Shown here: positions 12,101 through 56,354 of the stretch, in pieces
Layout: the number at the start of each line of letters is the position of its first letter
How positions within the stretch are numbered: position 1 is the first letter of the stretch
NCBI RefSeq assembly: GCF_027579695.1
Contig: NC_083596.1
Span: forward strand, 50,281,257-50,345,256
Direction of reading: 5' to 3'
Length of the DNA stretch: 64,000 nt
Origin: Neoarius graeffei
Lineage: Eukaryota; Chordata; Actinopteri; Siluriformes; Ariidae
Made by a program: the position numbers and the translations under genes
The notes under the pieces: generated by a model
What the model was told of the DNA's origin: nothing
Databases searched by the model: none
What the model saw: only the letters and a program-made list of their open reading frames with translations

Positions 12101-15100
12101 AGCATTATTTTTTTTTTTTCAAATAAAAGACATTTTTGTGAAGTGAGGACTTTTTTGCTGGTCCTCACTTCTTCAAAGGGCTGCTTGAGGGTTAAGACTG
12201 AGTTTTAGGGTTCGGGTATGGGGGTTAGGCATTTAGTTGTGATGGGGTTCAGATTAGGAGCCCTAGGTTAGAGTAAGGGGCTTGGGAATGCATTGTCAAT
12301 GAGTGTCCCCACAAAGATAGAAGGACAAGTGTGTGTGTGTGTGTGTTATTCAAGGTGATGATAGTAGCTGAGACTCCTGCCCCCAGACCTGTCCCTCTGG
12401 TGCTAGAACTTGATGATGCAACACGGGAAAGTCTGGTTCAGGTGGATACACACCTGCTGAGTAAACTCAAACCTCACCAACGAGAGGGTAAGTGAAGTGT
12501 GTGTGAGAGAAACCATATTTTTTTTTTCATCAACATCATTTCCATTCCCATTGACTTAATTTGTGAGTTTATTTCTAACACACTGCGGTGTATGTGTGTG
12601 TGTAGGTGTGCAGTTCATTTGGGACAGCTGTTGTGAGTCCATAGCGAAGGTGAAATCGTCTCCTGGTTCCGGTTGCATTCTCGCCCACTGCATGGGCCTC
12701 GGAAAGACGCTGCAGGTGTGTGTGATGAAGAGGCTCAAGAGAATTGAGCATGTGGTGTCATTTACAGGAAGCGACTTATTAGGAAGTCATGTGTGTGTTT
12801 CAGGTGATCACGTTTCTGCACACGGTGTTGACGTGTGAGCTGGTGATGCTGAAGACGGCGCTGGTGGTTTGTCCTCTAAACACAGTGCTCAACTGGAGAG
12901 CCGAGTTCGACAAATGGCAGCGTGGCATCATCAAAAAGAAAATGGAGGTCAGTGTTTTTTCAGAATGTTCGACTGAATGAACTGTATACATAAACACAAC
13001 TTTTAAATGCACTTCATTCTTAATTCATAGACTAAAAGTGATGTGCATTTATGTACATCTCTGTCTCTCTGGCGTCCAGGTGATGGAGTTTGTGACGGTG
13101 AAGTCCGTGTGTTCTCGTGTGAATGCTCTGAGCAGTTGGCACAACAGAGGTGGTGTGATGATCATGAGTTATGAAATGTACCGCATTCTCACACACGGAG
13201 ATCAAACCAAATACGGCAAACAGCAGGAGAACCTGCGTGCAGCACTGCAGAACCCGGGTACGGAGCTGCCAAATACTAATCCATTATTCACACTGTAGTG
13301 CATAACACACCCTGCCAAATCCTGCTCCATATACATAATGTACTGTAGTCGCACCCTGCAGAATCCTGCTCCTTATACATAATGTACTGTAGTCGCACCC
13401 TGCCGAATCCTGCTCCTTATACACAATGTACTGTACTCGCACCCTGCCGAATCCTGTTCCTTATACACAATGTACTATATTCGCGCCCTGCCGAATCCTG
13501 CTCCTTATACACAATGTACTGTACTCGCACCCTGCCGAATCCTGCTCCTCATGCACAATGTACTGGACTCGTACCCTGCCGAATCCTGCTCCTTATACAC
13601 AATGTACTGTACTCGCACCCTGCCGAATCCTGTTCCTTATACACAATGTACTGTATTCGCACCCTGCCGAATCCTGTTCCTTATACACAATGTACTGTAC
13701 TCGCACCCTGCCGAATCCTGCTCATGCACAATGTACTGGACTCGTACCCTGCCGAATCCTGCTCCTTATACACAATGTACTGTACTCGCACCCTGCCGAA
13801 TCCTGTTCCTTATACACAATGTACTGTATTCGCACCCTGCCGAATCCTGTTCCTTATACACAATGTACTGTACTCGCACCCTGCCGAATCCTGCTCCTTA
13901 TACACAATGTACTGTACTCGCACCCTGCCGAATCCTGTTCCTTATACACAATGTACTGTACTCACACCCTGCCGAATCCTGCTCCTCATGCACAATGTAC
14001 TGGACTCGTACCCTGCCGAATCCTGCTCCTTATACACAATGTACTGTACTCGCACCCTGCCGAATCCTGTTCCTTATACACAATGTACTGTATTCGCGCC
14101 CTGCCGAATCCTGTTCCTTATACACAATGTACTGTACTCGCACCCTGCCGAATCCTGCTCCTCATGCACAATGTACTGGACTCGTACCCTGCCGAATCCT
14201 GCTCCTTATACACAATGTACTGTACTCGCACCCTGCCGAATCCTGTTCCTTATACACAATGTACTGTATTCGCACCCTGCCGAATCCTGTTCCTTATACA
14301 CAATGTACTGTACTCGCACCCTGCCGAATCCTGCTCCTTATACACAATGTACTGTACTCGCACCCTGCCGAATCCTGTTCCTTATACACAATGTACTGTA
14401 CTCACACCCTGCCGAATCCTGCTCCTCATGCACAATGTACTGGACTCGCACCCTGCCAAATCCTGCTCATTAGACACAATGTACTGTACTCACACCCTGC
14501 CGAATCCTGTTCCTTATACACAATGTACTGTACTCGCACCCTGCCGAATCCTGCTCCTCATGCACAATGTACTGGACTTGCACCCTGCCGAATCCTGCTC
14601 CTCATGCACAATGTACTGTACTAGCACCCTGCCGAATCCTGCTCCTCATGCACAATTTACTGGACTCGTACTCTGCCAAATCCTGCTCCTTAGACACAAT
14701 GTACTGTACTTGCACCCTGCCGAATCCTGTTCCTTATACACAATGTACTGTATTCGCACCCTGCCGAATCCTGTTCCTTATACACAATGTACTGTATTCG
14801 CACCCTGCCGAATCCTGCTCCTTATAAACAATGTACTGTACTCGCACCCTGCCGAATCCTGCTCCTCATGCACAATGTACTGTACTCGCACCCTGCCGAA
14901 TCCTGCTCCTCATACACAATGTACTGTACTCGCACCCGCCCGAATCCTGCTCCTTATACACAATGTACTGTACTCGCACCCTGCCGAATCCTGTTCCTTA
15001 TACACAATGTACTGTACTCGCACCCTGCCGAATCCTGCTCCTCATACACAATGTACTGTACTCGCACCCTGCCGAATCCTGCTCCTCATGCACAATGTAC

Positions 15101-18100
15101 TGTACTCGCACCCTGCCGAATCCTGCTCCTCATACACAATGTACTGTACTCGCACCCTGCCGAATCCTGCTCCTCATACACAATGTACTGTACTCGCACC
15201 CTGCCGAATCCTGTTCCTTATACACAATGTACTGTACTCGCACCCTGCCAAATTCTGCTCCTCATGCACAATGTACTGTACTCGCACCCTGCCGAATCCT
15301 GCTCCTCATACACAATGTACTGTACTTGCACTCTGCCGAATCCTGTTCCTTATACACAATGTACTGTATTCGCACCCTGCCGAATCCTGCTCCTTATAAA
15401 CAATGTACTGTACTCGCACCCTGCCGAATCCTGCTCCTCATGCACAATGTACTGTACTCGCACCCTGCCGAATCCTGCTCCTCATACACAATGTACTGTA
15501 CTCGCACCCGCCCGAATCCTGCTCCTTATACACAATGTACTGTACTCGCACCCTGCTGAATCCTGCTCTTTATACACAATGTACTGTACTCGCACCCTGC
15601 CGAATCCTGTTCCTTATACACAATGTACTGTATTCGCACCCTGCCGAATCCTGTTCCTTATACACAATGTACTGTACTCGCACCCTGCCGAATTCTGCTC
15701 CTCATGCACAATGTACTGTACTCGCACCCTGCCGAATCCTGCTCCTCATACACAATGTACTGTACTCGCACCCGCCCGAATCCTGCTCCTTATACACAAT
15801 GTACTGTACTCGCACCCTGCTGAATCCTGCTCTTTATACACAATGTACTGTACTCGCACCCTGCCGAATCCTGCTCCTCATACACAATGTACTGGACTCG
15901 CACCCTGCCGAATCCTGCTCCTCATACACAATGTACTGTACTCGCACCCTGCCGAATCCTGCTCTTTATACACAATGTACTGTACTCGCACCCTGCCGAA
16001 TCCTGCTCCTCATACACAATGTACTGTACTCGCACCCGCCCGAATCCTGCTCCTCATGCACAATGTACTGTATTCGCACCCTGCCGAATCCTGCTCCTCA
16101 TGCACAATGTACTGTACTCGCACCCTGCCGAATCCTGCTCCTCATGCACAATGTACTGTACTCTTACCCTGCCGAATCCTGCTCCTTATACACAATGTAC
16201 TGTACTCGCACCCCGCCGAATCCTGCTCTTTATACACAATGTACTGTACTCGCACCCTGCCGAATCCTGCTCCTTATAGACAATGTACTGTACTCGCACC
16301 CTGCCGAATCCTGCTCCTCATACACAATGTACTGTACTCGCACCCTGCCGAATCCTGCTCCTTATACACAATGTACTGTACTCGCACCCTGCCGAATCCT
16401 GCTCCTCATACACAATGTACTGTACTCGCACCCTGCCGAATCCTGCTCCTTATACACAATGTACTGTACTCGCACCCTGCCGAATCCTGCTCCTCATACA
16501 CAATGTACTGTACTCGCACCCTGCCGAATCCTGCTCCTTATACACAATGTACTGTACTCGCACCCTGCCGAATCCTGCTCCTCATACACAATGTACTGTA
16601 CTCGCACCCTGCCGAATCCTGCTCCTCATACACAATGTACTGTACTCGCACCCTGCCGAATCCTGCTCCTTATACACAATGTACTGTACTCGCACCCTGC
16701 CGAATCCTGCTCCTTATACACAATGTACTGTACTCGCACCCCGCCGAATCCTGCTCCTTATACACAATGTACTGTACTCGCACCCTGCCGAATCCTGCTC
16801 CTTATACACAATGTACTGTACTCGCACCCCGCCGAATCCTGCTCCTCATACACAATGTACTGTACTCGCACCCGCCCGAATCCTGCTCCTTATACACAAT
16901 GTACTGTACTCGCACCCGCCCGAATCCTGCTCCTCATGCACAATGTACTGTACTCGCACCCTGCCGAATCCTGCTCCTCATGCACAATGTACTGTACTCA
17001 CACCCTGCCGAATCCTGCTCCTCATGCACAATGTACTGTACTCTTACCCTGCCGAATCCTGCTCCTTATACACAATGTACTGTACTCGCACCCGCCCGAA
17101 TCCTGCTCCTCATACACAATGTACTGTACTCGCACCCGCCCGAATCCTGCTCCTCATGCACAATGTACTGTACTCGCACCCTGCCGAATCCTGCTCCTCA
17201 TGCACAATGTACTGTACTCGCACCCTGCCGAAACCTGCTCCTCATGCACAATGTACTGTACTCTTACCCTGCCGAATCCTGCTCCTTATACACAATGTAC
17301 TGTACTCGCACCCCGCCGAATCCTGCTCTTTATACACAATGTACTGTACTCGCACCCTGCCGAATCCTGCTCCTCATGCACAATGTACTGTATTCGCACC
17401 CTGCTGAATCCTGCTCCTTATACACAATGTACTGTACTCGCACCCGCCCGAATCCTGCTGCTCATGCACAATGTACTGTACTCGCACCCTGCCGAATCCT
17501 GCTCCTCATGCACAATGTACTGTACTCGCACCCTGCCGAATCCTGCTCCTCATGCACAATGTACTGTACTCTTACCCTGCCGAATCCTGCTCCTTATACA
17601 CAATGTACTGTACTCGCACCCCGCCGAATCCTGCTCCTTATAGACAATGTACTGTACTCGCACCCTGCCGAATCCTGCTCCTCATACACAATGTACTGTA
17701 CTCGCACCCTGCCGAATCCTGCTCCTTATACACAATGTACTGTACTCGCACCCTGCCGAATCCTGTTCCTTATACACAATGTACTGTACTCGCACCCTGC
17801 CTAATCCTGTTCCTTATACACAATGTACTGTACTCGCACCCTGCCGAATCCTGCTCCTCATACACAATGTACTGTACTCGCACCCTGCCGAATCCTGTTC
17901 CTTATACACAATGTACTGTACTCGCACCCCGCCGAATCCTGCTCCTTATACACAATGTACTGTACTCGCACCCTGCTGAATCCTACTCCTCATACACAAT
18001 GTACTGTACTCGCACCCTGCCGAATCCTACTCCTCATACACAATGTACTGTACTCGCACCCTGCCGAATCCTGTTCCTCATACACAATGTACTGTACTCG

Positions 18101-21100
18101 CACCCTGCTGAATCCTGCTCCTCATACACAATGTACTGTACTCGCACCCCGCCGAATCCTGCTCCTCATGCACAATGTACTGTAATCGCACCCTGCCGAA
18201 TCCTGCTCCTCATGCACAATGTACTGTACTCTTACCTTGCCGAATCCTGCTCCTTATACACAATGTACTGTACTCGCACCCCGCCGAATCCTGCTCTTTA
18301 TACACAATGTACTGTACTCGCACCCTGCCGAATCCTGCTCCTTATAGACAATGTACTGTACTCGCACCCTGCCGAATCCTGCTCCTCATACACAATGTAC
18401 TGTACTCGCACCCTGCCGAATCCTGCTCCTTATACACAATGTACTGTACTCGCACCCTGCCGAATCCTGTTCCTTATACACAATGTACTGTACTCGCACC
18501 CCGCCGAATCCTGCTCCTTATACACAATGTACTGTACTCGCACCCTGCTGAATCCTGCTCCTTATACACAATGTACTGTACTCGCACCCTGCCGAATCCT
18601 GCTCCTCATACACAATGTACTGTACTCGCACCCTGCCGAATCCTGCTCCTCTTGCACAATGTACTGTACTCGCACCCTGCCGAATCCTGCTCCTCATGCA
18701 CAATGTACTGTACTCGCACCCCGCCGAATCCTGCTCCTCATACACAATGTACTGTACTCGCACCCCGCCGAATCCTGCTCCTTATACACAATGTACTGTA
18801 CTCGCACCCTGCTGAATCCTGCTCCTTATACACAATGTACTGTACTCGCACCCTGCCGAATCCTGCTCCTCATACACAATGTACTGTACTCGCACCCTGC
18901 CGAATCCTGCTCCTCTTGCACAATGTACTGTACTCGCACCCTGCTGAATCCTGCTCCTCATGCACAATGTACTGTACTCGCACCCCGCCGAATCCTGCTC
19001 CTCATACACAATGTACTGTACTCGCACCCTGCCGAATCCTGCTCCTCATACACAATGTACTGTACTCGCACCCTGCCGAATCCTGCTCCTCATACACAAT
19101 GTACTGTACTCGCACCCCGCCGAATCCTGCTCCTCATGCACAATGTACTGTAATCGCACCCTGCCGAATCCTGCTCCTCATGCACAATGTACTGTACTCT
19201 TACCCTGCCGAATCCTGCTCCTTATACACAATGTACTGTACTCGCACCCTGCCGAATCCTGCTCCTCATACACAATGTACTGTACTCGCACCCTGCCGAA
19301 TCCTGCTCCTCATACACAATGTACTGTACTCGCACCCTGCCGAATCCTGCTCCTCATACACAATGTACTGTACTCGCACCCTGCCGAATCCTGCTCCTCA
19401 TACACAATGTACTGTACTCGCACCCTGCCGAATCCTGCTCCTTATACACAATGTACTGTACTCGCACCCTGCCGAATCCTGCTCCTCATACACAATGTAC
19501 TGTACTCGCACCCTGCCGAATCCTGCTCCTTATACACAATGTACTGTACTCGCACCCTGCCGAATCCTGCTCCTCATACACAATGTACTGTACTCGCACC
19601 CTGCCGAATCCTGCTCCTCATACACAATGTACTGTACTCGCACCCTGCCGAATCCTGCTCCTCATACACAATGTACTGTACTCGCACCCTGCCGAATCCT
19701 GTTCCTTATACACAATGTACTGTACTCGCACCCTGCTGAATCCTGCTCCTTATACACAATGTACTGTACTCGCACCCTGCCGAATCCTGCTCCTCATACA
19801 CAATGTACTGTACTCTTACCCTGCCGAATCCTGCTCCTCATACACAATGTACTGTACTCGCACCCGCCCGAATCCTGCTCCTCATACACAATGTACTGTA
19901 CTCGCACCCTGCCGAATCCTGCTTCTTATACACAATGTACTGTACTCGCACCCCGCCGAATCCTGCTCCTCATACACAATGTACTGTACTCGTACCCTGC
20001 CGAATCCTGCTCCTTATACACAATGTACTGTACTCGCACCCTGCCGAATCCTGTTCCTCATACACAATGTACTGTACTCGCACACTGCCGAATCCTGCTC
20101 CTCATACACAATGTACTGTACTCGCACCCTGCCGAATCCTGCTCCTCATGCACAATGTACTGTACTCGCACCCTGCCGAATCCTGCTCCTCATGCACAAT
20201 GTACTGTACTCGCACCCTGCCGAATCCTGCTCCTCATACACAATGTACTGTACTCGCACCCTGCCGAATCCTGCTCCTCATGCACAATGTACTGTACTCG
20301 CACCCCGCTGAATCCTGCTCCTCATACACAATGTACTGTACTCGCACCCGCCCGAATCCTGCTCCTCATACACAATGTACTGTACTCGCACCCTGCCGAA
20401 TCCTGCTCCTTATACACAATGTACTGTACTCGCACCCTGCCGAATCCTGCTCCTCATACACAATGTACTGTACTCGCACCCCGCCGAATCCTGCTCCTTA
20501 TACACAATGTACTGTACTCGCACCCTGCCGAATCCTGCTCCTCATGCACAATGTACTGTACTCGCACCCTGCCGAATCCTGCTCCTCATGCACAATGTAC
20601 TGTACTCGCACCCTGCCGAATCCTGCTCCTCATACACAATGTACTGTACTCGCACCCTGCCGAATCCTGCTCCTCATGCACAATGTACTGTACTCGCACC
20701 CTGCCGAATCCTGCTCCTCATGCACAATGTACTGTACTCGCACCCTGCTGAATCCTGCTCCTCTTACACAATGTACTGTACTCGCACCCTGCCGAATCCT
20801 GCTCCTCATACACAATGTACTGTACTCGCACCCCGCCGAATCCTGCTCCTTATACACAATGTACTGTACTCGCACCCTGCCGAATCCTGCTCCTCATGCA
20901 CAATGTACTGTACTCGCACCCTGCCGAATCCTGCTCCTCATGCACAATGTACTGTACTCGCACCCTGCCGAATCCTGCTCCTCATACACAATGTACTGTA
21001 CTCGCACCCTGCCGAATCCTGCTCCTCATGCACAATGTACTGTACTCGCACCCTGCTGAATCCTGCTCCTCATACACAATGTACTGTACTCGCACCCGCC

Positions 21101-24100
21101 CGAATCCTGCTCCTCATACACAATGTACTGTACTCGCACCCTGCCGAATCCTACTCCTTATACACAATGTACTGTACTCGCACCCCGCCGAATCCTGCTC
21201 CTTATACACAATGTACTGTACTCGCACCCTGCCGAATCCTGCTCCTCATGCACAATGTACTGTACTCGCACCCTGCCAAATCCTGCTCCTTATACACAAT
21301 GTACTGTACTCACACCCTGCCACATCCTGCTCCTTATACACAATGTACTGTACTCGCACCCGCCCGAATCCTGCTCCTTATACACAATGTACTGTACTCG
21401 CACCCCGCCGAATCCTGCTCCTTATACACAATGTACTGTACTCGCACCCTGCCGAATCCTGCTCCTTATACACAATGTACTGTACTCGCACCCGCCCGAA
21501 TCCTGCTCCTCATACACAATGTAGTGTACTCGCACCCTGCCGAATCCTGCTCCTTATACACAATGTACTGTACTCGCACCCTGCCGAATCCTGCTCCTTA
21601 TACACAATGTACTGTACTCGCACCCCGCCGAATCCTGCTCTTTATACACAATGTACTGTACTCGCACCCTGCTGAATCCTGCTCCTCATACACAATGTAC
21701 TGTACTCGCTCCCTGCCGAATCCTGCTCCTCATACACAATGTACTGTACTCTTACCCTGCCGAATCCTGCTCCTTATACACAATGTACTGTACTCGCACC
21801 CTGCCGAATCCTGCTCCTTATACACAATGTACTGTACTCGCACCCCGCCGAATCCTGCTCTTTATACACAATGTACTGTACTCGCACCCTGCTGAATCCT
21901 GCTCCTCATACACAATGTACTGTACTCGCACCCCGCCGAATCCTGCTCTTTATACACAATGTACTGTACTCGCACCCTGCCGAATCCTGCTCCTTATAGA
22001 CAATGTACTGTACTCGCACCCTGCCGAATCCTGCTCCTTATACACAATGTACTGTACTCGCACCCTGCCGAATCCTGCTCTTTATACACAATGTACTGTA
22101 CTCGCACCCTGCTGAATCCTGCTCCTCATACACAATGTACTGTACTCGCACCCTGCCGAATCCTGCTCCTCATACACAATGTACTGTACTCGCACCCTGC
22201 CGAATCCTGCTCCTTATACACAATGTACTGTACTCGCACCCTGCCGAATCCTGCTCCTCATACACAATGTACTGTACTCGCACCCTGCCGAATCCTGCTC
22301 CTCATACACAATGTACTGTACTCGCACCCTGCCGAATCCTGTTCCTTATACACAATGTACTGTACTCGCACCCTGCTGAATCCTGCTCCTTATACACAAT
22401 GTACTGTACTCGCACCCTGCCGAATCCTGCTCCTTATACACAATGTACTGTACTCGCACCCTGCCGAATCCTGCTCCTCATACACAATGTACTGTACTCG
22501 CACCCTGCCAAATCCTGCTCCTCATACACAATGTACTGTACTCGCACCCTGCCGAATCCTGCTCCTCATGCACAATGTACTGTACTCGCACCCTGCCGAA
22601 TCCTGCTCCTCATACACAATGTACTGTACTCGCACCCTGCCGAATCCTGCTCCTCATGCACAATGTACTGTACTCGCACCCTGCCGAATCCTGTTCCTTA
22701 TACACAATGTACTGTACTCGCACCCTGCCGAATCCTGTTCCTTATACACAATGTACTGTACTCGCACCCTGCCGAATCCTGCTCCTCATACACAATGTAC
22801 TGTATTCGCTCCCTGCCGAATCCTGCTCCTCATACACAATGTACTGTACTCGCACCCTGCCGAATCCTGCTCCTTATACACAATGTACTGTACTCGCACC
22901 CTGCCGAATCCTGCTCCTCATACACAATGTACTGTACTCGCACCCTGCCGAATCCTGCTCCTCATACACAATGTACTGTACTCGCACCCTGCCGAATCCT
23001 GTTCCTTATACACAATGTACTGTACTCGCACCCTGCTGAATCCTGCTCCTTATACACAATGTACTGTACTCGCACCCTGCCGAATCCTGCTCCTCATGCA
23101 CAATGTACTGTACTCGCACCCTGCTGAATCCTGCTCCTCATACACAATGTACTGTACTCGCACCCTGCTGAATCCTGCTCCTTATACACAATGTACTGTA
23201 CTCGCACCCCGCCGAATCCTGCTCCTTATACACAATGTACTGTACTCGCACCCTGCCGAATCCTGCTCCTCATGCACAATGTACTGTACTCGCACCCTGC
23301 CGAATCCTGCTCCTCATGCACAATGTACTGTACTCGCACCCTGCCGAATCCTGCTCCTCATACACAATGTACTGTACTCGCACCCTGCCGAATCCTGTTC
23401 CTTATACACAATGTACTGTACTCGCACCCTGCCGAATCCTGCTCCTCATACACAATGTACTGTACTCGCACCCTGCCGAATCCTGCTCCTCATACACAAT
23501 GTACTGTACTCGCACCCGCCCGAATCCTGCTCCTCATACACAATGTACTGTACTCGCACCCTGCTGAATCCTGCTCCTCATACACAATGTACTGTACTCG
23601 CACCCTGCCGAATCCTGCTCCTCATACACAATGTACTGTACTCGCACCCCGCCGAATCCTGCTCCTTATACACAATGTACTGTACTCGCACCCTGCCGAA
23701 TCCTGCTCCTCATACACAATGTACTGTACTCGCACCCTGCCGAATCCTGCTCCTCATGCACAATGTACTGTACTCGCACCCTGCCGAATCCTGCTCCTCA
23801 TACACAATGTACTGTACTTGCACCCTGCCGAATCCTGCTCCTCATGCACAATGTACTGTACTCGCACCCTGCCGAATCCTGCTCCTCATACACAATGTAC
23901 TGTACTCGCACCCGCCCGAATCCTGCTCCTCATACACAATGTACTGTACTCGCACCCTGCCGAATCCTACTCCTTATACACAATGTACTGTACTCGCACC
24001 CCGCCGAATCCTGCTCCTTATACACAATGTACTGTACTCGCACCCTGCCGAATCCTGCTCCTCATGCACAATGTACTGTACTCGCACCCTGCCGAATCCT

Positions 24101-27100
24101 GCTCCTTATACACAATGTACTGTACTCACACCCTGCCAAATCCTGCTCCTTATACACAATGTACTGTACTCGCACCCCGCTGAATCCTGCTCCTTATACA
24201 CAATGTACTGTACTCGCACCCTGCCGAATCCTGCTCCTTATACACAATGTACTGTACTCGCACCCCGCCGAATCCTGCTCCTTATACACAATGTACTGTA
24301 CTCGCACCCGCCCGAATCCTGCTCCTCATACACAATGTACTGTACTCGCACCCTGCCGAATCCTGCTCTTTATACACAATGTACTGTACTCGCACCCTGC
24401 CGAATCCTGCTCCTTATACACAATGTACTGTACTCGCACCCCGCCGAATCCTGCTCTTTATACACAATGTGCTGTACTCGCACCCTGCTGAATCCTGCTC
24501 CTCATACACAATGTACTGTACTCGCTCCCTGCCGAATCCTGCTCCTCATACACAATGTACTGTACTCGCACCCTGCCGAATCCTGCTCCTTATACACAAT
24601 GTACTGTACTCGCACCCCGCCGAATCCTGCTCTTTATACACAATGTACTGTACTCGCACCCCGCCGAATCCTGCTCTTTATACACAATGTACTGTACTCG
24701 CACCCTGCTGAATCCTGCTCCTCATACACAATGTACTGTACTCGCACCCTGCCGAATCCTGCTCCTTATACACAATGTACTGTACTCGCACCCCGCCGAA
24801 TCCTGCTCTTTATACACAATGTACTGTACTCGCACCCCGCCGAATCCTGCTCTTTATACACAATGTACTGTACTCGCACCCTGCCGAATCCTGCTCCTCA
24901 TACACAATGTACTGTACTCGCACCCCGCCGAATCCTGCTCTTTATACACAATGTACTGTACTCGCACCCTGCCGAATCCTGCTCCTCATAGACAATGTAC
25001 TGTACTCGCACCCTGCCGAATCCTGCTCCTCATACACAATGTACTGTACTCGCACCCTGCCGAATCCTGCTCCTTATACACAATGTACTGTACTCGCACC
25101 CTGCTGAATCCTGTTCCTTATACACAATGTACTGTACTCGCACCCTGCCGAATCCTGTTCCTTATACACAATGTACTGTAATCGCACCCTGCCGAATCCT
25201 GCTCCTCATACACAATGTACTGTACTCGCTCCCTGCCGAATCCTGCTCCTCATACACAATGTACTGTACTCGCACCCTGCCGAATCCTGCTCCTTATACA
25301 CAATGTACTGTACTCGCACCCTGCCGAATCCTGCTCCTCATACACAATGTACTGTACTCGCACCCTGCCGAATCCTGCTCCTCATACACAATGTACTGTA
25401 CTCGCACCCTGCCGAATCCTGTTCCTTATACACAATGTACTGTACTCGCACCCTGCCGAATCCTGCTCCTCATACACAATGTACTGTACTCGCACCCTGC
25501 CAAATCCTGCTCCTCATAAACAATGTACTGTACTCGCACCCTGCCGAATCCTGCTCCTTATACACAATGTACTGTACTCGCACCCTGCCGAATCCTACTC
25601 CTCATGCACAATGTACTGTACTCGCACCCCGCCGAATCCTGCTCCTTATACACAATGTACTGTACTCGCACCCTGCCGAATCCTGCTCCTCATACACAAT
25701 GTACTGTACTCGCACCCTGCCGAATCCTGCTCCTCATGCACAATGTACTGTACTCGCACCCTGCCGAATCCTGCTCCTCATACACAATGTACTGTACTCG
25801 CACCCGCCCGAATCCTGCTCCTCATACACAATGTACTGTACTCGCACCCGCCCGAATCCTGCTCCTCATACACAATGTACTGTACTCGCACCCGCCCGAA
25901 TCCTGCTCCTTATACACAATGTACTGTACTCGCACCCTGCCGAATCCTGCTCCTCATGCACAATGTACTGTACTCGCACCCTGCCGAATCCTGCTCCTCA
26001 TGCACAATGTACTGTACTCGCACCCCGCCGAATCCTGCTCCTTATACACAATGTACTGTACTCGCACCCTGCCGAATCCTGCTCCTCATGCACAATGTAC
26101 TGTACTCGCACCCTGCTGAATCCTGCTCCTCATACACAATGTACTGTACTCGCACCCTGCCGAATCCTGCTCCTCATACACAATGTACTGTACTCGCACC
26201 CCGCCGAATCCTGCTCCTTATACACAATGTACTGTACTCGCACCCTGCCGAATCCTGCTCCTCATGCACAATGTACTGTACTCGCACCCTGCCGAATCCT
26301 GCTCCTCATGCACAATGTACTGTACTCGCACCCTGCCGAATCCTGCTCCTCATACACAATGTACTGTACTCGCACCCTGCCGAATCCTGCTCCTCATGCA
26401 CAATGTACTGTACTCGCACCCTGCTGAATCCTGCTCCTCATACACAATGTACTGTACTCGCACCCGCCCGAATCCTGCTCCTCATACACAATGTACTGTA
26501 CTCGCACCCTGCCGAATCCTACTCCTTATACACAATGTACTGTACTCGCACCCCGCCGAATCCTGCTCCTTATACACAATGTACTGTACTCGCACCCTGC
26601 CGAATCCTGCTCCTCATGCACAATGTACTGTACTCGCACCCTGCCGAATCCTGCTCCTTATACACAATGTACTGTACTCACACCCTGCCAAATCCTGCTC
26701 CTTATACACAATGTACTGTACTCGCACCCCGCTGAATCCTGCTCCTTATACACAATGTACTGTACTCGCACCCTGCCGAATCCTGCTCCTTATACACAAT
26801 GTACTGTACTCGCACCCCGCCGAATCCTGCTCCTTATACACAATGTACTGTACTCGCACCCGCCCGAATCCTGCTCCTCATACACAATGTACTGTATATT
26901 TCGATTACGTTCATTATGTCTTATATTAAATATAGTTAGTATTTTTTTTTTTCTTTTTTAACAGACATCTAATTTTTTAGGTTTGTTTACCTGACATGTT
27001 TCGACGTATAACTTCCGTCTTCCTCAGAGTGTCTCCGGATGTTGTTGGTGACGCATCTTTTATCAGCTGATGTTTCTGAAGGCGTGGCCTTCCTGTCTGG

Positions 27101-30100
27101 ATTGACAGGTCGGTCACGCCTTATACTGTCTGTTCGTCCCCTGCAAGATGGCACTCCAGGTATGGGAGAGCATGTATGCTCCCTCATCCCGGTTGATGGT
27201 CCTCGGGCTTCGCTTACGGATCTCCATGGCCTCCCTGATCCAGCGCTGATGTTTGTTATCTTCTGTGCGGATGACTCTGGCATTCCCCCAGTCCATAATG
27301 TGATTTTCCCTTTTGCAATGATCTGTTATAGCTGACTTATAATTTTCCTGTTGTGCCTTTTCTTTTATTGTTCGGGTTTGTCTTGTAGCTGTCTCCTTTT
27401 CGCACTCTTTCTTATGTTCATTTTTTCTTGTATTAAAACTCCTTCCTGTTTCCCCAATGTAAGTTTTATTGCATAATTGGCATGGAATCTCATATATGGT
27501 GTTGCATCTGTTGTCCGGATGTATTCTGTCTTTGGGATGAACCAGGATCTGACGGAGTGTTGTGTGTGGTTTGACAGGTGTGTTAATGTTGTGTTTCCTC
27601 ATTACTCTTTGAATGCGTTCAGTTATTCCCCTGATGTATGGTAATGTAACTACTCCCCTGTGTTCTTGTTTGTTAGTTTGTTTTTTCCCTTTCTTCTGTG
27701 TTTTGTTGTTCTTAACCTGTTCCGCCCCTTTGGATATTGCCCATTGTGGATATTGACATGCCTTCAGTGCGTGTTGTATATGTTGTTCCTCCTGTTCTTT
27801 GTCCTGTGAATCTGTAATTATTGCTGTGCGTTCATGTAATGTTCTAACTACTGATATTTTGTGCATTATGGGGTGTTCGGAAGTCCAGTTTAAATATTGG
27901 TCGGTGTGTGTGGGTTTCCTGTGTACTTTTATTTTGATGTCCCCATCTTCCGTGTGTTGTATTTTCAAATCCAAAAATGCTATTGACTGCTCTGTCTCTT
28001 CTTCATGTGTGAATTTTATATTGCCGGTATTGTCTATGGTGTTGAGATGGTCGGTGAGCTGTTGAGTGTGTCCCCTCTTCACTTTTTCCAATATGTCGTC
28101 CACATACCGTTTCCAGAGTGTTGGTCTGTATTCCGATGGTATTGTAGTGAGTGCTTTCTGCTCCAGATCTTCCATGAAAAAGCCGCACATGATGGCTGAT
28201 AGTGGGTCTCCCATGGCAAAACCTTCCTTCTGTCTGTAAATTGTATTCCTGAACTGAAAGTATGTGGATGTGGCGATGAATTGAAGGAGCTGAGTGATGT
28301 CTTGTACAGTGAGGTTTGTGCGTTTCTTGAGCGTCCTGTCTGTTTTTAATTTGTCTTGTACTACCTGTATGGTGGCTTCCGTGGGTGTTCTGGTGAAAAG
28401 AGATATGACGTCGTGTGATATGAAAACTTCATCTTGCTGCATTTTGATGTTTTTTAGTTCTTCTGCCAGTTGTTTTGAGTTTTTGCAATGTTGGTCTGTG
28501 AGTCCTAGTAATGGTTTAATTATTTCGGTGAGTGCTTTTGATAAGTTGTATGTGACTGAACCAATGCTGTCTACTATGGGGCGTAATGGTGTTCCTGGTT
28601 TGTGTATTTTTGGTGTGCCGTAAATCCTGGGGATGACGTTGGCTGTGGGTACTAAATGATTGTAAGCCTGCTTGTCTATTTTGTTTTCTTTGAGTAATGG
28701 TTTGAGTAGTGCTTTAAGTTTCTTTTTCTTGTCTTCTGTTGGGTCTTTTTTTAATATTTCAAATGCGTTGTCACTGAGTAATTCATTCATTTTTCGTTCA
28801 TATTCATCCGTGTCCATAATGACTGTTGTCCTGCCTTTATCTGCTGGGAGGATTGTGATATCTTTATTTTTTGATAACGTTCTCATGGCTTTGGCTTCCT
28901 GTTTTGTGATGTTACTGGGTGGTGGTTTGGCCGTTTTCAATATACCAGCTATTGCGTTTCTTAGTGCTGCTTTTTGTCCCTGATCCTGTATTTTCTCACA
29001 TGCTAATTCAGTTGCCAGAATGAATTCATCGTGAGGTATATTGTTCGGTGTGACAGCGTAGTTGAGTCCTTTTGCCAGTATACTGCGTTCTGCTTGTGAG
29101 AGTTTGTACCTTGATATATTATGAATCCATTTTTCGTTGATGTGCGCGTGCTCCGGTTCTGCCTTCTTTTTCCATGCGATGAGTTTGTCCAGTTTTCGTA
29201 TTTGTCGGGTTTTTGTCATGGTGAATTCCTGTTCGTGTATGTCTGCCAAGTGTCCGTGTATTGCCATTTCCATTTCCTTGCTTTGGGGAAACCGGCGTTT
29301 GAAAGTTTCCGTCTCCCTGTGTAGTTCGCTGTTGATATTGTTTAGTTTATCCGTTGTGCACCGTATCCGTTCTTTTACCAGAGTCATCCGCACTTTCCTG
29401 ATCATCTTTTCCGCGTTTCTGGTTGGAATCGGGTTCTTGATGTTCAGGCTGGCCGGTACCACTTCTTCATCCCGGCAGCGCAGATTGAACCTCAGGTGAT
29501 TCCTGTAGCGTGCCCGTTTCTGTGTCAGTCTCTCTAGGCGGCGAAACTCCTTGATGCTTTCGTCTCCGTAACTAATTCTTAATATTTCGATTACGTTCAT
29601 TATGTCTTATATTAAATATAGTTAGTATTTTTTTTTTTCTTTTTTAACAGACATCTAATTTTTTAGGTTTGTTTACCTGACATGTTTCGACGTATAACTT
29701 CCGTCTTCCTCAGACGGAATATTTAAACTGGACTTCCGAACACCCCATAATGCACAAAATATCAGTAGTTAGAACATTACATGAACGCACAGCAATAATT
29801 ACAGATTCACAGGACAAAGAACAGGAGGAACAACATATACAACACGCACTGAAGGCATGTCAATATCCACAATGGGCAATATCCAAAGGGGCGGAACAGG
29901 TTAAGAACAACAAAACACAGAAGAAAGGGAAAAAACAAACTAACAAACAAGAACACAGGGGAGTAGTTACATTACCATACATCAGGGGAATAACTGAACG
30001 CATTCAAAGAGTAATGAGGAAACACAACATTAACACACCTGTCAAACCACACACAACACTCCGTCAGATCCTGGTTCATCCCAAAGACAGAATACATCCG

Positions 30101-33100
30101 GACAACAGATGCAACACCATATATGAGATTCCATGCCAATTATGCAATAAAACTTACATTGGGGAAACAGGAAGGAGTTTTAATACAAGAAAAAATGAAC
30201 ATAAGAAAGAGTGCGAAAAGGAGACAGCTACAAGACAAACCCGAACAATAAAAGAAAAGGCACAACAGGAAAATTATAAGTCAGCTATAACAGATCATTG
30301 CAAAAGGGAAAATCACATTATGGACTGGGGGAATGCCAGAGTCATCCGCACAGAAGATAACAAACATCAGCGCTGGATCAGGGAGGCCATGGAGATCCGT
30401 AAGCGAAGCCCGAGGACCATCAACCGGGATGAGGGAGCATACATGCTCTCCCATACCTGGAGTGCCATCTTGCAGGGGACGAACAGACAGTATAAGGCGT
30501 GACCGACCTGTCAATCCAGACAGGAAGGCCACGCCTTCAGAAACATCAGCTGATAAAAGATGCGTCACCAACAACATCCGGAGACACTCTGAGGAAGACG
30601 GAAGTTATACGTCGAAACATGTCAGGTAAACAAACCTAAAAAATTAGATGTCTGTTAAAAAAGAAAAAAAAAAAATACTAACAATGTACTGTACTCGCAC
30701 CCTGCCGAATCCTGCTCTTTATACACAATGTACTGTACTCGCACCCTGCCGAATCCTGCTCCTTATACACAATGTACTGTACTCGCACCCCGCCGAATCC
30801 TGCTCTTTATACACAATGTACTGTACTCGCACCCTGCTGAATCCTGCTCCTCATACACAATGTACTGTACTCGCTCCCTGCCGAATCCTGCTCCTCATAC
30901 ACAATGTACTGTACTCTTACCCTGCCGAATCCTGCTCCTTATACACAATGTACTGTACTCGCACCCTGCCGAATCCTGCTCCTTATACACAATGTACTGT
31001 ACTCGCACCCCGCCGAATCCTGCTCTTTATACACAATGTACTGTACTCGCACCCTGCTGAATCCTGCTCCTCATACACAATGTACTGTACTCGCACCCCG
31101 CCGAATCCTGCTCTTTATACACAATGTACTGTACTCGCACCCTGCCGAATCCTGCTCCTTATAGACAATGTACTGTACTCGCACCCTGCCGAATCCTGCT
31201 CCTCATACACAATGTACTGTACTCGCACCCTGCCGAATCCTGCTCCTTATACACAATGTACTGTACTCGCACCCTGCCGAATCCTGTTCCTTATACACAA
31301 TGTACTGTACTCGCACCCTGCCGAATCCTGTTCCTTATACACAATGTACTGTACTCGCACCCTGCCGAATCCTGCTCCTCATACACAATGTACTGTACTC
31401 GCTCCCTGCCGAATCCTGCTCCTCATACACAATGTACTGTACTCGCACCCTGCCGAATCCTGCTCCTTATACACAATGTACTGTACTCGCACCCTGCCGA
31501 ATCCTGCTCCTCATACACAATGTACTGTACTCGCACCCTGCCGAATCCTGCTCCTCATACACAATGTACTGTACTCGCACCCTGCCGAATCCTGTTCCTT
31601 ATACACAATGTACTGTACTCGCACCCCGCCGAATCCTGCTCCTTATACACAATGTACTGTACTCGCACCCTGCCGAATCCTGCTCCTCATGCACAATGTA
31701 CTGTACTCGCACCCTGCCGAATCCTGCTCCTCATGCACAATGTACTGTACTCGCACCCTGCCGAATCCTGCTCCTCATACACAATGTACTGTACTCGCAC
31801 CCTGCCGAATCCTGCTCCTCATGCACAATGTACTGTACTCGCACCCTGCTGAATCCTGCTCCTCATACACAATGTACTGTACTCGCACCCGCCCGAATCC
31901 TGCTCCTCATACACAATGTACTGTACTCGCACCCTGCCGAATCCTACTCCTTATACACAATGTACTGTACTCGCACCCTGCCGAATCCTGCTCCTTATAC
32001 ACAATGTACTGTACTCGCACCCTGCTGAATCCTGCTCCTCATACACAATGTACTGTACTCGCACCCTGCTGAATCCTGCTCCTCATACACAATGTACTGT
32101 ACTCGCACCCTGCCGAATCCTGCTCCTCATACACAATGTACTGTACTCGCACCCTGCCGAATCCTGCTCCTCATGCACAATGTACTGTACTCGCACCCTG
32201 CCGAATCCTGCTCCTTATACACAATGTACTGTACTCGCACCCTGCCAAATCCTGCTCCTTATACACAATGTACTGTACTCGCACCCTGCCGAATCCTGCT
32301 CCTTATACACAATGTACTGTACTCACACCCTGCCAAATCCTACTCCTTCTACACAATGTACTGTACTCGCACCCCGCCGAATCCTGCTCCTTATACACAA
32401 TGTACTGTACTCGCACCCGCCCGAATCCTGCTCCTCATACACAATGTACTGTACTCGCACCCTGCCGAATCCTGCTCTTTATACACAATGTACTGTACTC
32501 GCACCCTGCCGAATCCTGCTCCTTATACACAATGTACTGTACTCGCACCCCGCCGAATCCTGCTCTTTATACACAATGTACTGTACTCGCACCCTGCTGA
32601 ATCCTGCTCCTCATACACAATGTACTGTACTCGCTCCCTGCCGAATCCTGCTCCTCATACACAATGTACTGTACTCTTACCCTGCCGAATCCTGCTCCTT
32701 ATACACAATGTACTGTACTCGCACCCTGCCGAATCCTGCTCCTTATACACAATGTACTGTACTCGCACCCCGCCGAATCCTGCTCTTTATACACAATGTA
32801 CTGTACTCGCACCCTGCTGAATCCTGCTCCTCATACACAATGTACTGTACTCGCACCCCGCCGAATCCTGCTCTTTATACACAATGTACTGTACTCGCAC
32901 CCTGCCGAATCCTGCTCCTTATAGACAATGTACTGTACTCGCACCCTGCCGAATCCTGCTCCTCATACACAATGTACTGTACTCGCACCCTGCCGAATCC
33001 TGCTCCTTATACACAATGTACTGTACTCGCACCCTGCCGAATCCTGTTCCTTATACACAATGTACTGTACTCGCACCCTGCCGAATCCTGCTCCTCATAC

Positions 33101-35584
33101 ACAATGTACTGTACTCGCTCCCTGCCGAATCCTGCTCCTCATACACAATGTACTGTACTCGCACCCTGCCGAATCCTGCTCCTTATACACAATGTACTGT
33201 ACTCGCACCCTGCCGAATCCTGCTCCTTATACACAATGTACTGTACTCGCACCCTGCCGAATCCTGCTCCTCATACACAATGTACTGTACTCGCACCCTG
33301 CCGAATCCTGCTCCTCATACACAATGTACTGTACTCGCACCCTGCCGAATCCTGTTCCTTATACACAATGTACTGTACTCGCACCCTGCCGAATCCTGCT
33401 CCTTATACACAATGTACTGTACTCGCACCCTGCCGAATCCTGCTCCTTATACACAATGTACTGTACTCGCACCCTGCCGAATCCTGCTCCTCATACACAA
33501 TGTACTGTACTCGCACCCTGCCAAATCCTGCTCCTCATACACAATGTACTGTACTCGCACCCTGCCGAATCCTGCTCCTCATGCACAATGTACTGTACTC
33601 GCACCCTGCCGAATCCTGCTCCTTATGCACAATGTACTGTACTCGCACCCTGCCGAATCCTGCTCCTCATACACAATGTACTGTACTCGCACCCTGCCGA
33701 ATCCTGCTCCTCATGCACAATGTACTGTACTCGCACCCCGCCGAATCCTGCTCCTTATACACAATGTACTGTACTCGCACCCTGCCGAATCCTGCTCCTC
33801 ATACACAATGTACTGTACTCGCACCCTGCCGAATCCTGCTCCTCATACACAATGTACTGTACTCGCACCCTGCCGAATCCTGCTCCTCATACACAATGTA
33901 CTGTACTCGCACCCTGCCGAATCCTGTTCCTTATACACAATGTACTGTACTCGCACCCTGCCGAATCCTGTTCCTTATACACAATGTACTGTACTCGCAC
34001 CCTGCCGAATCCTGTTCCTTATACACAATGTACTGTACTCGCACCCTGCCGAATCCTGTTCCTTATACACAATGTACTGTACTCGCACCCTGCCGAATCC
34101 TGCTCCTCATACACAATGTACTGTACTCGCACCCGCCCGAATCCTGCTCCTCATACACAATGTACTGTACTCGCACCCGCCCGAATCCTGCTCCTCATAC
34201 ACAATGTACTGTACTCGCACCCTGCCGAATCCTGCTCCTTATACACAATGTACTGTACTCGCACCCCGCCGAATCCTGCTCCTTATACACAATGTACTGT
34301 CCTCGCACCCTGCCGAATCCTGCTCCTCATGCACAATGTACTGTACTCGCACCCTGCCGAATCCTGCTCCTCATACACAATGTACTGTACTCGCACCCGC
34401 CCGAATCCTGCTCCTTATACACAATGTACTGTACTCGCACCCTGCCGAATCCTGCTCCTCATGCACAATGTACTGTACTCGCACCCTGCCGAATCCTGCT
34501 CCTCATGCACAATGTACTGTACTCGCACCCTGCCGAATCCTGCTCCTCATACACAATGTACTGTACTCGCACCCGCCCGAATCCTGCTCCTCATACACAA
34601 TGTACTGTACTCGCACCCTGCCGAATCCTGCTCCTTATACACAATGTACTGTACTCGCACCCCGCCGAATCCTGCTCCTTATACACAATGTACTGTCCTC
34701 GCACCCTGCCGAATCCTGCTCCTCATGCACAATGTACTGTACTCGCACCCTGCCGAATCCTGCTCCTCATGCACAATGTACTGTACTCGCACCCTGCCGA
34801 ATCCTGCTCCTCATACACAATGTACTGTACTCGCACCCCGCCGAATCCTGCTCCTTATACACAATGTACTGTACTCGCACCCTGCCGAATCCTGCTCCTC
34901 ATGCACAATGTACTGTACTCGCACCCTGCCGAATCCTGCTCCTTATACACAATGTACTGTACTCGCACCCTGCCAAATCCTGCTCCTCATACACAATGTA
35001 CTGTACTCGCACCCCGCCGAATCCTGCTCCTTATACACAATGTACTGTACTCGCACCCTGCCGAATCCTGCTCCTTATACACAATGTACTGTACTCGCAC
35101 CCTGCCGAATCCTGCTCCTCATACACAATGTACTGTACTTGCACCCTGCCGAATCCTGCTCCTCATACACAATGTACTGTACTCGCACCCTGCCGAATCC
35201 TGCTCCTTATACACAATGTACTGTACTCGCACCCCGCCGAATCCTGCTCCTTATAAACAATGTACTGTATTCGCACCCGCCCGAATCCTACTCCTTATAC
35301 ACAATGTAGTGTACTCGCACCCTGCCGAATCCTGCTCCTCATGCACAATGTACTGTACTCGCACCCTGCCGAATCCTGCTCCTCATACACAATGTACTGT
35401 ACTCGCACCCTGCCGAATCCTGCTCCTCATACACAATGTACTGTACTCGCACCCCGCCGAATCCTGCTCCTTATACACAATGTACTGTACTCGCACCCTG
35501 CCGAATCCTGCTCCTTATACACAATGTACTGTACTCGCACCCTGCCGAATCCTGCTCCTTATTCGTTTTGTTGTCCATGGAACA

Positions 35585-35623
<39 letters not shown>

Positions 35624-36407
35624 AGGACCCGACATAGTGGTGTGTGACGAAGGCCATGTCCTGAAAAATGAAGCGTCTGCCATCTGTAAAGCAATGCGCT
35701 CCATCCGCACGCGCCGGCGAATCGTCTTGACCGGAACACCGCTTCAGAACAATCTCAACGAGTGTAATGACCTTTGACCTTTTACCCTGACCAAGCTTTT
35801 AAAAAAAAAAAAAAAAAAACTTTTTTTTTTTTCCCCCAAACAGTCTTTAGAAGCTCGTGTGTGTGTGTGCTACAGATCACTGCATGGTGAGTTTTGTGAA
35901 GCAGAACCTCTTGGGTTCTCTGCGCGAGTTTCGGAACCGTTTCATCAACCCCATCCAGAACGGCCAGTGTGCCGACTCCACGCTCTCCGATGTGAGACTG
36001 ATGAAGAAACGTGTGCACGTCCTCCACGAGCTCCTCGCTGGATGTGTTCAGGTCAGAGAGAGAGAATCAGACAGAATGCGAGAGACAGAGAGAGAGAGAG
36101 AGGGAAAACATTTCGAACAGAATATTCTATAGTTACTTTGTCACCAAGTTACATGAGGTTGGTTTCTAACTCTAGCTGGCTATGCTAAAGTGTGTGTGTG
36201 TGTGTGTGTGTCTGTCTTGTAGAGACGGGATTATTCCGCTCTGACACCTTTCCTGCCACCCAAGCGAGAGTACGTGCTGTCAGTCAGGATGACAACACTA
36301 CAGTGCAAACTGTACCGACACTACTTACAGAACTACACTGGTCAGACAGGCACACACACAACTCAATAACCACAGATGATTTCTTCTAGCTAACCTTGCA
36401 CTTTAAT

Positions 36408-37867: not shown

Positions 37868-40800
37868 AAATAAAACAGGGTTCCCTCTTTGGATAATCAT
37901 TCCACCCCCACCACCCCCCTCTCTCTCCACTCTCCCCCTCCTCTCACTACCTCCCTCTCTCTCTCCCCCTCCTCTCACTACCTCCCTCTCCTCTCACTAC
38001 CTCCCTCCCTCTCTCTCCACTCTCCCCCTCCTCTCACTACCTCCCTCTCTCTCTCCACTCTCCCCCTCCTCTCACTACCTCCCTCTCCTCTCACTACCTC
38101 CCTCCCTCTCTCTCCACTCTCCCCCTCCTCTCACTACCTCCCTCTCTCTCTCCACTCTCCCCCTCCTCTCACTACCTCCCTCTCTCTCTCCACTCTTCCC
38201 CTCCTCTCACTACCTCCCTCTCTCTCTCTCCACTCTCCCCCTCCTCTCACTACCTCCCTCTCTCTCTCTCCACTCTCCCCCTCCTCTCACTACCTCCCTC
38301 TCTCTCTCCACTCTCCCCCTCCTCTCACTACCTCCCTCTCTCTCTCTCCACTCTCCCCCTCCTCTCACTACCTCCCTCTCTCTCTCCACTCTCCCCCTCC
38401 ACTCTCCCCCTCCTCTCACTACCTCCCTCTCTCCACTCTCCCCCTCCTCTCACTATCTCCCTCTCTCCACTCTCCCCCTCCTCTCACTACCTCCCTCTCT
38501 CCACTCTCCCCCTCCTCTCACTACCTCCCTCTCTCCACTCTCCCCCTCCTCTCACTACCTCCCTCTCTCCACTCTCCCCCTCCTCTCACTACCTCCCTCT
38601 CTCCACTCTCCCCCTCTCTCTCTCCACTCTCCCCCTCTCTCTCTCTCTCTCCACTCTCTCTCTCCACTCTCCCCCTCCTCTCACTACCTCCCTCTCTCTC
38701 TCCCCCTCTCTCTCTCCACTCTCCCCCTCCTCTCACTACCTCCCTCTCTCTCTCTCTCCACTCTCCCCCTCCTCTCACTACCTCCCTCTCTCTCTCCCCC
38801 TCTCTCTCTCCACTCTCCCCCTCCTCTCACTACCTCCCTCTCTCTCTCCCCCTCCTCTCACTACCTCCCTCTCTCTCTCCCCCCTCTCTCCACTCTCCCC
38901 CCCTCTCTCCACTCTCCCTCCCTCCCCCCCTCCTCTCTCTCCCTCCCTCCCCCCCTCCTCTCTCTCCCTCCCTCCCCCCCTCCTCTCTCTCCCTCCCTCC
39001 CCCCCTCCTCTCTCTCCCTCCCTCCCCCCCTCCTCTCTCTCTCCCTCCTCCCTCTCTCTCTCCCTCCACTCCGCCCCATCTTCACTCCCCCCCCCAGCTG
39101 CAGGTTGTTCCTGATCTCGACTCGAGCCGGCTCTTTAGGGATTAATCTTGTCGCGGCGAATCGAGTCGTGGTGTTTGACGCATCATGGAATCCGATGTAT
39201 GACGTTCAGAGCATGTTTAGAGTTTATCGCTTTGGCCAGAAGAAACCCGTGTACATCTACCGCTTCCTAGCACAGGTACGCACGCACGCGCGCGCACACA
39301 CACACAGGTGCTGTTCTCACTTTACAGACAGGAGAGAGAACTTTAAAAGGCAACACAGATAAAATCAGTGGTGATGATGATGATGGTCCTGCTGTTCCTC
39401 AGGGAACAATGGAGCAGAAGATCTACGAGCGTCAGGTGGCGAAGCAGTCTCTGTCATCCCGTGTGGTGGACCAGCAGCAGATCCAGCGCCACTTCACACT
39501 CAGCCAACTGAGCGACCTGTACCGCTTCCAACCTGACAGCCGCGGCAAGAGCCACACTGTGGAGCCTGCGGTACACACTCTCTCTCTCTCTCTCTCTCAC
39601 TATAACACAACACGTACATCAATATTAATCTTACTTTAAATTTCTGTCCACCTGTTCAGGTGGGATTAGTTTTCCTGACTCGCGTGGGCGTCTTCACCAT
39701 GCACCAAAAAACCACAATTCCATGTGTCCTACGTCCGCATCATTTTAATTTTTGTCCTTTATTATTTAAGTGCTCGGTGTAGGGGGCGTGGCCACACAAG
39801 TTAGGACTACTGATGTCATATTGGTGTCATGATAACACATCACGATACTTTTCTGAGATTTTACAATGTTTTTATTATTATATTATCAATTAGATTAGCA
39901 AAGATTTGTAATTTTTTTCTTTTCAGTGTTAGATTTCTTAAAAAAAAAGTTTTAAATGTAAAAAATACAACAAATGTACTTTTGTACACTTGATTTCACA
40001 AACTGAGCAATTAATCAAACAAAAGAAACACGACTGCACTGCTGAGCCTGTCAAAGCTCAGCTCATCGTGAAGACATCTTGAAGGATTGTGATTTTTTTT
40101 TTTTTGAGACGTCACTCGGCCCTAACACAAGTTCATCATGAGTAGGTCACATGGTCATAAATCCGGAAGCATCGCCTCTCCGACACATCTTTTTAAAACG
40201 ACTTTTTTATTGTTCTGTTTCATTTTAGAGCAGTGACGAGATGAACTATTACCTGCGATTATTAAGTCGTAAATTACGATGGAATTTTTCCAGCTCAGTT
40301 TGTAAAAACTTAAACAGAATAAATCCCAGATATTCCGGGAACGACGACATTCCTCACCTCCACGTGGAAAGTTAATCCCGCCTTGATGCGGTTGAAGATG
40401 CAAAGCACGTACAATCGTTTATTCGTGATTTGACATTAGCTCCGCCCCCAGACACGTCACTGCGATACATCTGTGCACCATCATAAGGTGGAGTTTGAGC
40501 AGAGGGGGAGGGGTCAGTTTGGGAGAGAAAGGCTGGTCGGTGTTTTCATTGTGATTGCAGTTCACCTCACAGCCAGCAGATGGCGCCAAACATCACAAAC
40601 TGCTGCTTTAAAATGAGTGTGTGTGTGTGTGTGTGTGTGTGTGTAGGACAAGGTGCTGGCGATGCTCCTGAAGCACTGTGGGCGAACCATAGTGTCGTTC
40701 CATGAACACAATTCGCTGTTGGATCACAGGGTGGAGGAGGAGCTTAGCATGGAGGAAAGGAAGGAGGCGTGGGAGGAGTACAAGCTCGAGGAGACGAAGC

Positions 40801-53299: not shown

Positions 53300-54445
53300 C
53301 AGCACACTGCTGATCCAACACTGCTGATCCAACACTGACCCAACACTGCACACTGCTGATCCAACACTGCTGATCCAACACTGCACACTGCTGATCCAAC
53401 ACTGCTGATCCAACACTGCACACTGCTGATCCAACACTGCACACTGCTGATCCAACACTGATCCAACACTGCACACTGCTGATCCAACACTGCTGATCCA
53501 ACACTGCACACTGCTGATCCAACACTGATCCAACACTGCACACTCCTGATCCAACACTGCTGATCCAACACTGCACACTGCTGATCCAACACTGCTGATC
53601 CAACACTGCACACTGCTGATCCAACACTGCTGATCCAACACTGCACACTGCTGATCCAACACTGATCCAACACTGCACACTCCTGATCCAACACTGCTGA
53701 TCCAACACTGCACACTGCTGAGCCAACACTGCTGATCTAACACTGCACACTGCTGATCCAACACTGATCCAACACGGCTGATCCAACACTGCACACAGCT
53801 GATCCAACACTGCACACTGCTGATCCAACACTGACCCAACACTGCTGATCCAACATTGATCCAACACTGCTAATCCAACACTGCACACTGCTGATCCAAC
53901 ACTGATGATCCAACACTGATCCAACACTGCTGATCCAACACTGACCCAACACTGCTGATCCAACACTGCACACTGCTGATCCAACACTGCTGATCCAACA
54001 CTGATCCAACACTGCACACTGCTGATCCAACACTGATCCAACACTGCTGATCCAACACTGATCCAACACTGCTGATCTAACACTGACCCAACACTGACCC
54101 AACACTGCACACTGCTGATCCAACACTGATCCAACACTGCACACTGCTGATCCAACACTGCACACTGCTGATCCAACACTGACCCAACACTGCTGATCCA
54201 ACACTGCACACTGCTGATCCAACACTGATGATCCAACACTGATGATCCAACACTGACCCAACACTGCTGATCCAACACTACTGATCCAACACTGATCCAA
54301 CACTGATGATCCAACACTGCACACTGCTGATACTGCTGATCCAACACTGATCCAACACTGCACACTGCTGATCCAACACTGCATCCAACACTGATCCAAC
54401 ACTGCATACTGATGATCCAACACTGCACACTGCTGATCCAACACT
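53300..54445. repeat. Minisatellite upstream of UPRT (GATCCAACACTG-type units)
   Basis: About 1.15 kb built from GCTGATCCAACACTG (15 bases), GATCCAACACT (11-12 bases) and CACACTGCTGATCCAACACTG blocks in irregular order. Open frames of 150-450 codons on the minus strand (CWISSVQCWIS-type) come from the repeat. Confidence 0.95.
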
Positions 54446-56222: not shown

Positions 56223-56354
56223 TTAATTAATAAAAATTCATTTTAATATGACACACTTTTTTATCATTTATTTGATCTTTATTTTAAATTTTTACATGTA
56301 TATTTTGTATAAACACAAATAATATTCTGTATTTATGTTTTCATACACTGTCCT

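Follow-up and report, generated by a model that had tools for sequence, protein, structure and literature searches.

An unusually large and regular 44-bp intronic minisatellite, carrying a Penelope-like retrotransposon, in the ATRX gene of Neoarius graeffei

The closest known counterpart of the repeat described here is TRACT, a human VNTR of 30-bp units that occupies 3-30+ kb of a CACNA1C intron; an effect of its composition has been reported in the cerebellum and an effect of its length in two tissues (PMC13131567). Tandem repeats in introns that are transcribed together with the gene have also been described for the Drosophila Y genes kl-3, kl-5 and ks-1, whose introns contain megabases of short satellites (for example AATAT) and are served by a dedicated expression programme (PMC6508621). 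Concerning ATRX, the protein has been reported at G-rich repeats, and in ATR-X cases the length of such repeats has been found to matter for both alpha-globin and NME4 (PMC9203812). Here we describe an array of 44-bp units within an intron of the ATRX gene itself. Like TRACT, it is intronic, consists of hundreds of units of tens of bp, extends over several to tens of kb and carries many single-base variants. It differs from TRACT, as described in PMC13131567, in its unit length (44 bp) and in the gene concerned, in harbouring a retrotransposon and in its longest perfect stretch of 44-bp period, which is 219 bp; the array is known from one genome. It shares with the Drosophila genes of PMC6508621 the position of tandem repeats in an intron, where transcription with the gene can be presumed, and is distinguished by its scale and unit, 18 kb of 44-bp units. 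Among the titles and abstract openings listed from an open-licence library, we found neither an array in an ATRX intron nor a 44-bp teleost intronic repeat. The exact 34-base word of the unit had no match in viral or prokaryote genome collections.

We first consider the identity of the host gene. The translation of positions 1-300 of the window (the whole stretch of 64,000 nucleotides that was analysed) had four PDB matches, of which three were ADD chains of ATRX at 2.6e-34 to 1.5e-33 (2jm1, 2.6e-34; 3ql9, 1.5e-33). The remaining match, Sm D1, was far weaker (0.0005), and Pfam gave a weak PHD match alone (0.0066, under the cut-off). The exons flanking the array matched ATRX 9l06 at 1.4e-148, and the runner-up among the best 60 of 72 PDB matches was a RAD54-like chain at 6.1e-44. 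A chain named ARIP4/RAD54L2 was absent from these best 60 of 72, and ATRX is preferred over this paralogue because of the ADD match. The exons around the array were matched by SNF2-rel_dom of Pfam (4.9e-52), and positions 39060-39359 by Helicase_C (5.7e-10). With its DEGH box, the region thus encodes an ATRX-type SNF2 domain. The first-pass annotation had assigned the gene to ATRX, and both the ADD and SNF2 domains indeed match ATRX best in the PDB.

Exon joins were then searched from -3 to +45 of each upstream exon core for donors and from -45 to +3 of each downstream core for acceptors. All 12 joins between the 13 ATPase exon cores (12355-39528) had at least one in-frame, stop-free GT-AG pair. 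At several joins there was a choice of candidates; for the array intron there was a single one, 13257 to 35626, which defines an intron of 22,368 bp:

13080..13257, + strand: ATRX exon preceding the intron, with core peptide EFVTVK...RAALQ (13086-13250) and ending in NPG (PDB match, join search)
13258..35625, + strand: intron, 22,368 bp, with donor CGG/GTACGG and acceptor TTTAG/GACCC (join search)
35626..35763, + strand: ATRX DEGH-box exon (PDB match, join search)

Judged from the sequence, this in-frame join places the array wholly within the intron and, as had been proposed, the intron interrupts the catalytic SNF2 domain.

The period of the array was examined with the tandem repeat finder TRF, which returned a 44-bp array at 13308-35559. 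The 505.5 copies given in this row are too many because the row spans an insert. By direct count, the array comprises two blocks:

13308..26896, + strand: 44-bp array, first block, through the left target duplication (TRF, unit count, insert junctions)
30683..35559, + strand: 44-bp array, second block, starting with the right target duplication at 30683-30693 (unit count, insert junctions)

The blocks measure 13,589 and 4,877 bp, 18,466 bp in total, and subtraction of one 11-bp target copy leaves 18,455 bp, corresponding to 419.4 units. These values agree with the 18.4 kb and about 420 copies of the first-pass annotation, as does the TRF period with its 44 bp. When units were delimited by one anchoring word of the repeat unit, 420 anchors in the two blocks gave 418 anchor-to-anchor units, all but one of them exactly 44 bp long (417 of 418; the exception is 41 bp), which bears out the "nearly invariant" unit length noted earlier. 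The 44-bp units comprised 77 distinct sequences. Identity to the consensus was 96.6% on average and 84.1% at the lowest, and mean pairwise identity was 94.6% (5,000 random pairs). The head-to-tail arrangement and a unit of tens of bp are those of a minisatellite, and the array stands out within this known, non-coding kind of intronic repeat by its unusual size and regularity. Its strictness in unit length exceeds that of the other long arrays of the window, as TRF rows above 700 bp elsewhere showed 7-27% indels; a small 31-bp array (54578-54730) had 0 indels in TRF.

The insert, which was absent from the first-pass annotation, is a 3,786-bp Penelope-like retrotransposon that splits the array in two. 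Its features are as follows:

26886..26896, + strand: 11-bp target duplication AATGTACTGTA, left copy (insert junctions)
26897..30682, - strand: Penelope-like element, 3,786 bp, within the array (junctions, reading frame, Pfam)
27114..29606, - strand: stop-to-stop frame of the element, 830 aa, with RVT_1 and GIY-YIG (frame list, Pfam)
29582..29714, - strand: pseudo-LTR flanking the frame on its 5' side, identical over 133 bp to 26896-27028 (blastn self-comparison of the insert)
26896..27028, - strand: pseudo-LTR flanking the frame on its 3' side; the alignment extends one base into the target duplication (blastn self-comparison of the insert)
29718..30682, + strand: second, partial copy in inverted orientation, about 965 bp long and 99.8-99.9% identical to 26935-27898 in the main copy (frame list, blastn)
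26998-27027, - strand: hammerhead-like core (motif match)
29684-29713, - strand: hammerhead-like core (motif match)
30589-30618, + strand: hammerhead-like core (motif match)

The two flanking copies of AATGTACTGTA are themselves a piece of the repeat unit. When the flanks were rejoined at AATGTACTGTA, they matched an uninterrupted stretch of the array, 24048-24632, with 4 mismatches in 585 bases, and further uninterrupted relatives of the insertion site were found at 32157 (7 mismatches in 586) and 21232 (9 in 586). In the 830-aa frame, residues 334-526 matched RVT_1 (1.8e-05; 25 bits against a curated Pfam cut-off of 29.6) and residues 702-776 matched GIY-YIG (0.0018; 19 bits against 22.6). 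The succession of RVT_1 and GIY-YIG in one frame is the order of EN+ Penelope-like elements, with both scores under the curated cut-off. A search of the frame against PDB sequences gave no match at E up to 0.1. The 133-bp direct repeats (100% identical), the inverted copy (99.8-99.9% over about 965 bp) and the 11-bp duplication fit the pseudo-LTRs, often accompanied by an inverted copy, and the short target duplication of such elements. The core of hammerhead ribozymes follows the motif CTGANGA-N18-GAAAC, and this occurred three times in the pseudo-LTRs against 0.05 expected. The predicted fold at this hammerhead-like core contained stem II and lacked the other hammerhead stems (z -0.49). Rfam gave nothing at gathering score across the window and, for 26850-30750, nothing even with the E limit raised to 1.

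Rotifer Penelope elements have been described with two direct pseudo-LTRs and a further, inverted copy at their 5' end, and with a target duplication of 8-10 bp in several cases and none in some (PMC3846280). The insert resembles the Penelope-like elements of PMC3846280 and PMC11167929 in its reverse transcriptase followed by GIY-YIG, direct pseudo-LTRs, inverted 5' copy, a 3' end that runs into the start of the frame, and a short target duplication. It is unlike the elements described there in that its inverted copy is longer (about 965 bp) and its host site is a minisatellite, and the duplication is 11 bp rather than the 8-10 bp of the rotifer examples that have one. Taking into account that the element's copies are nearly identical (99.8-100%), the insertion is probably recent, and it would have occurred after the array had reached a large size.

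The order of units, encoded by variant, is a mosaic. Stretches of 8 to 13 consecutive units recur unchanged at separate places (7 pairs). When 40 windows of 880 bp, taken at steps of 440, were compared without gaps to the rest of the array (offsets below 880 bp excluded), best partners lay at whole unit numbers, and in 12 of the 40 windows they were 40, 58 or 122 units apart. The top partner identity was 99.43%, with none of the 40 windows above 99.4% to one decimal; the lowest best-partner identity, 64.8%, was that of the first window, which contains the 41-bp unit. Units at the 5' edge bear distinctive variants of their own. These block similarities point to growth in blocks, through unequal exchange or gene conversion.

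As assemblies tend to fail at long arrays, we considered whether a short array had been inflated, or whether reads from a dispersed satellite had been placed in the ATRX intron. The block pattern, however, appears unlike what would be expected of a collapsed or artificially copied assembly. With partners identical to at most 99.4% and a single transposon whose clean 11-bp duplication lies inside one unit, we judge an artefact decidedly unlikely; the exact length of 417 of 418 units, the distinctive units at the 5' edge and the in-frame exons on both sides of the array also speak against it. Concerning length, loss of perfect stretches has been proposed to have stabilised the CACNA1C VNTR (PMC13131567), and by the same reasoning the ATRX-intron array could be fairly stable at present. 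By analogy to the same VNTR, variation in array length between individuals is plausible, as the first-pass annotation had suggested.

Our results are very probably explained by a giant intronic minisatellite that was amplified in blocks, invaded by a transposon, and is passively transcribed, spliced out and tolerated. A 44-bp unit in the ATRX intron would have expanded to about 420 copies by repeated block copying (unequal exchange or gene conversion), its length being preserved while point variants arose and spread. The Penelope-like retrotransposon would then have inserted into one unit. We infer that the array, neutral in itself, is transcribed along with the gene and cleanly removed with the intron; that this must happen each time, as had been remarked, follows from the gene structure. 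The strict unit length counts against this passive explanation.

Tolerance of the array can be attributed to a sense strand nearly free of AG, which would offer few competing 3' splice sites, and to GTs that are weak donor matches. In 18.5 kb of array, we observed 15 AG on the sense strand against 578 expected from base composition, and possible cryptic acceptors are few as a result. On a simple donor consensus the GTs of the array scored at most 5 of 9 and the real donor 6; the best donor candidates of the other ATPase joins scored 5 to 8 of 9. We also examined whether acceptors had been selected against. Distinct variants that create AG were not depleted (6 against 4.65 expected), and the copy numbers of AG-making variants were not significantly lower than those of all others (P 0.11) or of other transversions (P 0.36). 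Moreover, among 38,335 44-mers taken from the window outside the array, 7.4% are free of AG. The scarcity of AG can therefore go back to the founding unit itself, since the variants are not depleted and AG-free 44-mers are ordinary. Low AG helps to explain tolerance, and selection for the lack of AG was not significant in the variant tests.

The array starts 50 bases past the donor and stops 66 bases short of the acceptor. Because it lies close to both splice sites, which counts against the passive explanation, it could in principle affect splicing, an effect that had been raised in the first-pass annotation. Branch points follow the consensus yUnAy. The last unit contains CTTAT at about 35558-35562, which fits this consensus, and the branch point may thus lie within or beside the last repeat unit. 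If the intron were retained, the frame would run into a stop codon at 13296-13298, upstream of the array. A coding role for the array was rejected: its frames of up to 1264 aa stem from a stop-poor unit (12.8% of random 44-mers from the window are without all three stops), and the frame of the upstream exon terminates before the array. Structure in the array RNA was likewise unremarkable in the one three-unit stretch that was folded (z 0.62 for the sense and -1.37 for the antisense strand).

The position of the array raised the possibility of a connection with the ATRX protein. Like the G-rich repeats bound by ATRX, such as the psi-zeta VNTR (PMC9203812), it is a tandem repeat connected to ATRX, here by lying in the gene. 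Unlike repeats of that type (PMC9203812), it lacks quadruplex patterns. G-quadruplex patterns in the array numbered 0 on either strand, which rules against a quadruplex array bound by ATRX, and GG occurred on the sense strand only 8 times. As there is no predicted G-quadruplex, binding of ATRX to its own intron at the array is without sequence support. The same counts argue against a regulatory element in which the length or composition of the array alters ATRX expression. Precedents for such an element exist: long alleles of CACNA1C are associated with reduced expression of CACNA1C in fibroblasts and of CACNA1C-IT3 in testis (PMC13131567), and in ATR-X cases NME4 is downregulated in step with the length of a G-rich repeat inside a gene (PMC9203812). 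The length effect at CACNA1C is, however, missing in the other 47 tissues (PMC13131567), and we regard a dosage-regulating element as unlikely.

A different tract was found in a later ATRX intron. Positions 37893-39072, about 1.18 kb, are without any G on the sense strand and almost wholly pyrimidine, and they stop about 25-31 bases ahead of an ATPase exon. Counted over 37919-39077, the tract contains 6.5% A and 0 AG and has 5 quadruplex patterns on the opposite strand. On sequence grounds, this tract would be a better candidate than the array for ATRX acting on its own gene. We could imagine that ATRX or heterochromatin partners load on the transcribed array, or on the quadruplex-capable purine strand of the tract, and slow transcription of ATRX, so that repeat length sets its dosage. 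In a milder form of this idea, only repeats free of AG on the sense strand would grow this large in introns, a filter that ATRX would show twice. Taken jointly, the two forms seem very unlikely to us. The preferred explanation remains the passively transcribed and tolerated minisatellite.

In satellites, a core can be kept by a bound factor, as in CENP-B boxes. We looked for a comparable core in the 44-bp unit and found that the 11 columns ACAATGTACTG carried 7 minor copies over 417 units. This gave a permutation P of 0.018, uncorrected and the best of four widths, the others giving 0.033-0.085. When invariance of ACAATGTACTG was evaluated by distinct variants it was not significant (P 0.20, range 0.20-0.58). 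The anchor word by which units were delimited overlaps this core, though the spacing of the units makes clear that none of them was missed. The low variation of ACAATGTACTG is a weak hint; such constancy is not required of a neutral array and we count it, too, against the passive explanation. That a bound protein maintains the near-invariant core is extremely unlikely when the 7 minor copies are set beside the uncorrected P value, the result by distinct variants and the overlap with the anchor word.

The locus offers a clean, large natural case of minisatellite growth inside a gene whose protein reportedly acts at tandem repeats. It can serve as a test case for whether intronic arrays are filtered for a lack of splice acceptors and whether the length of an intragenic repeat tunes expression, and the inserted transposon provides a relative time mark for growth of the array.

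Other repeats are present in the window. Two downstream minisatellites, at 51693-52588 (22-bp unit) and 53304-54445 (14/21-bp units), are those above 700 bp with 7-27% indels, and are far less regular than the ATRX-intron array. An open frame of 200 aa at 61078-61680 looks like the terminal part of a LINE reverse transcriptase. By eye, similar translations on both strands at 49912-50379, 56288-56763 and 62714-63193 suggest an interspersed repeat that is present in three copies.
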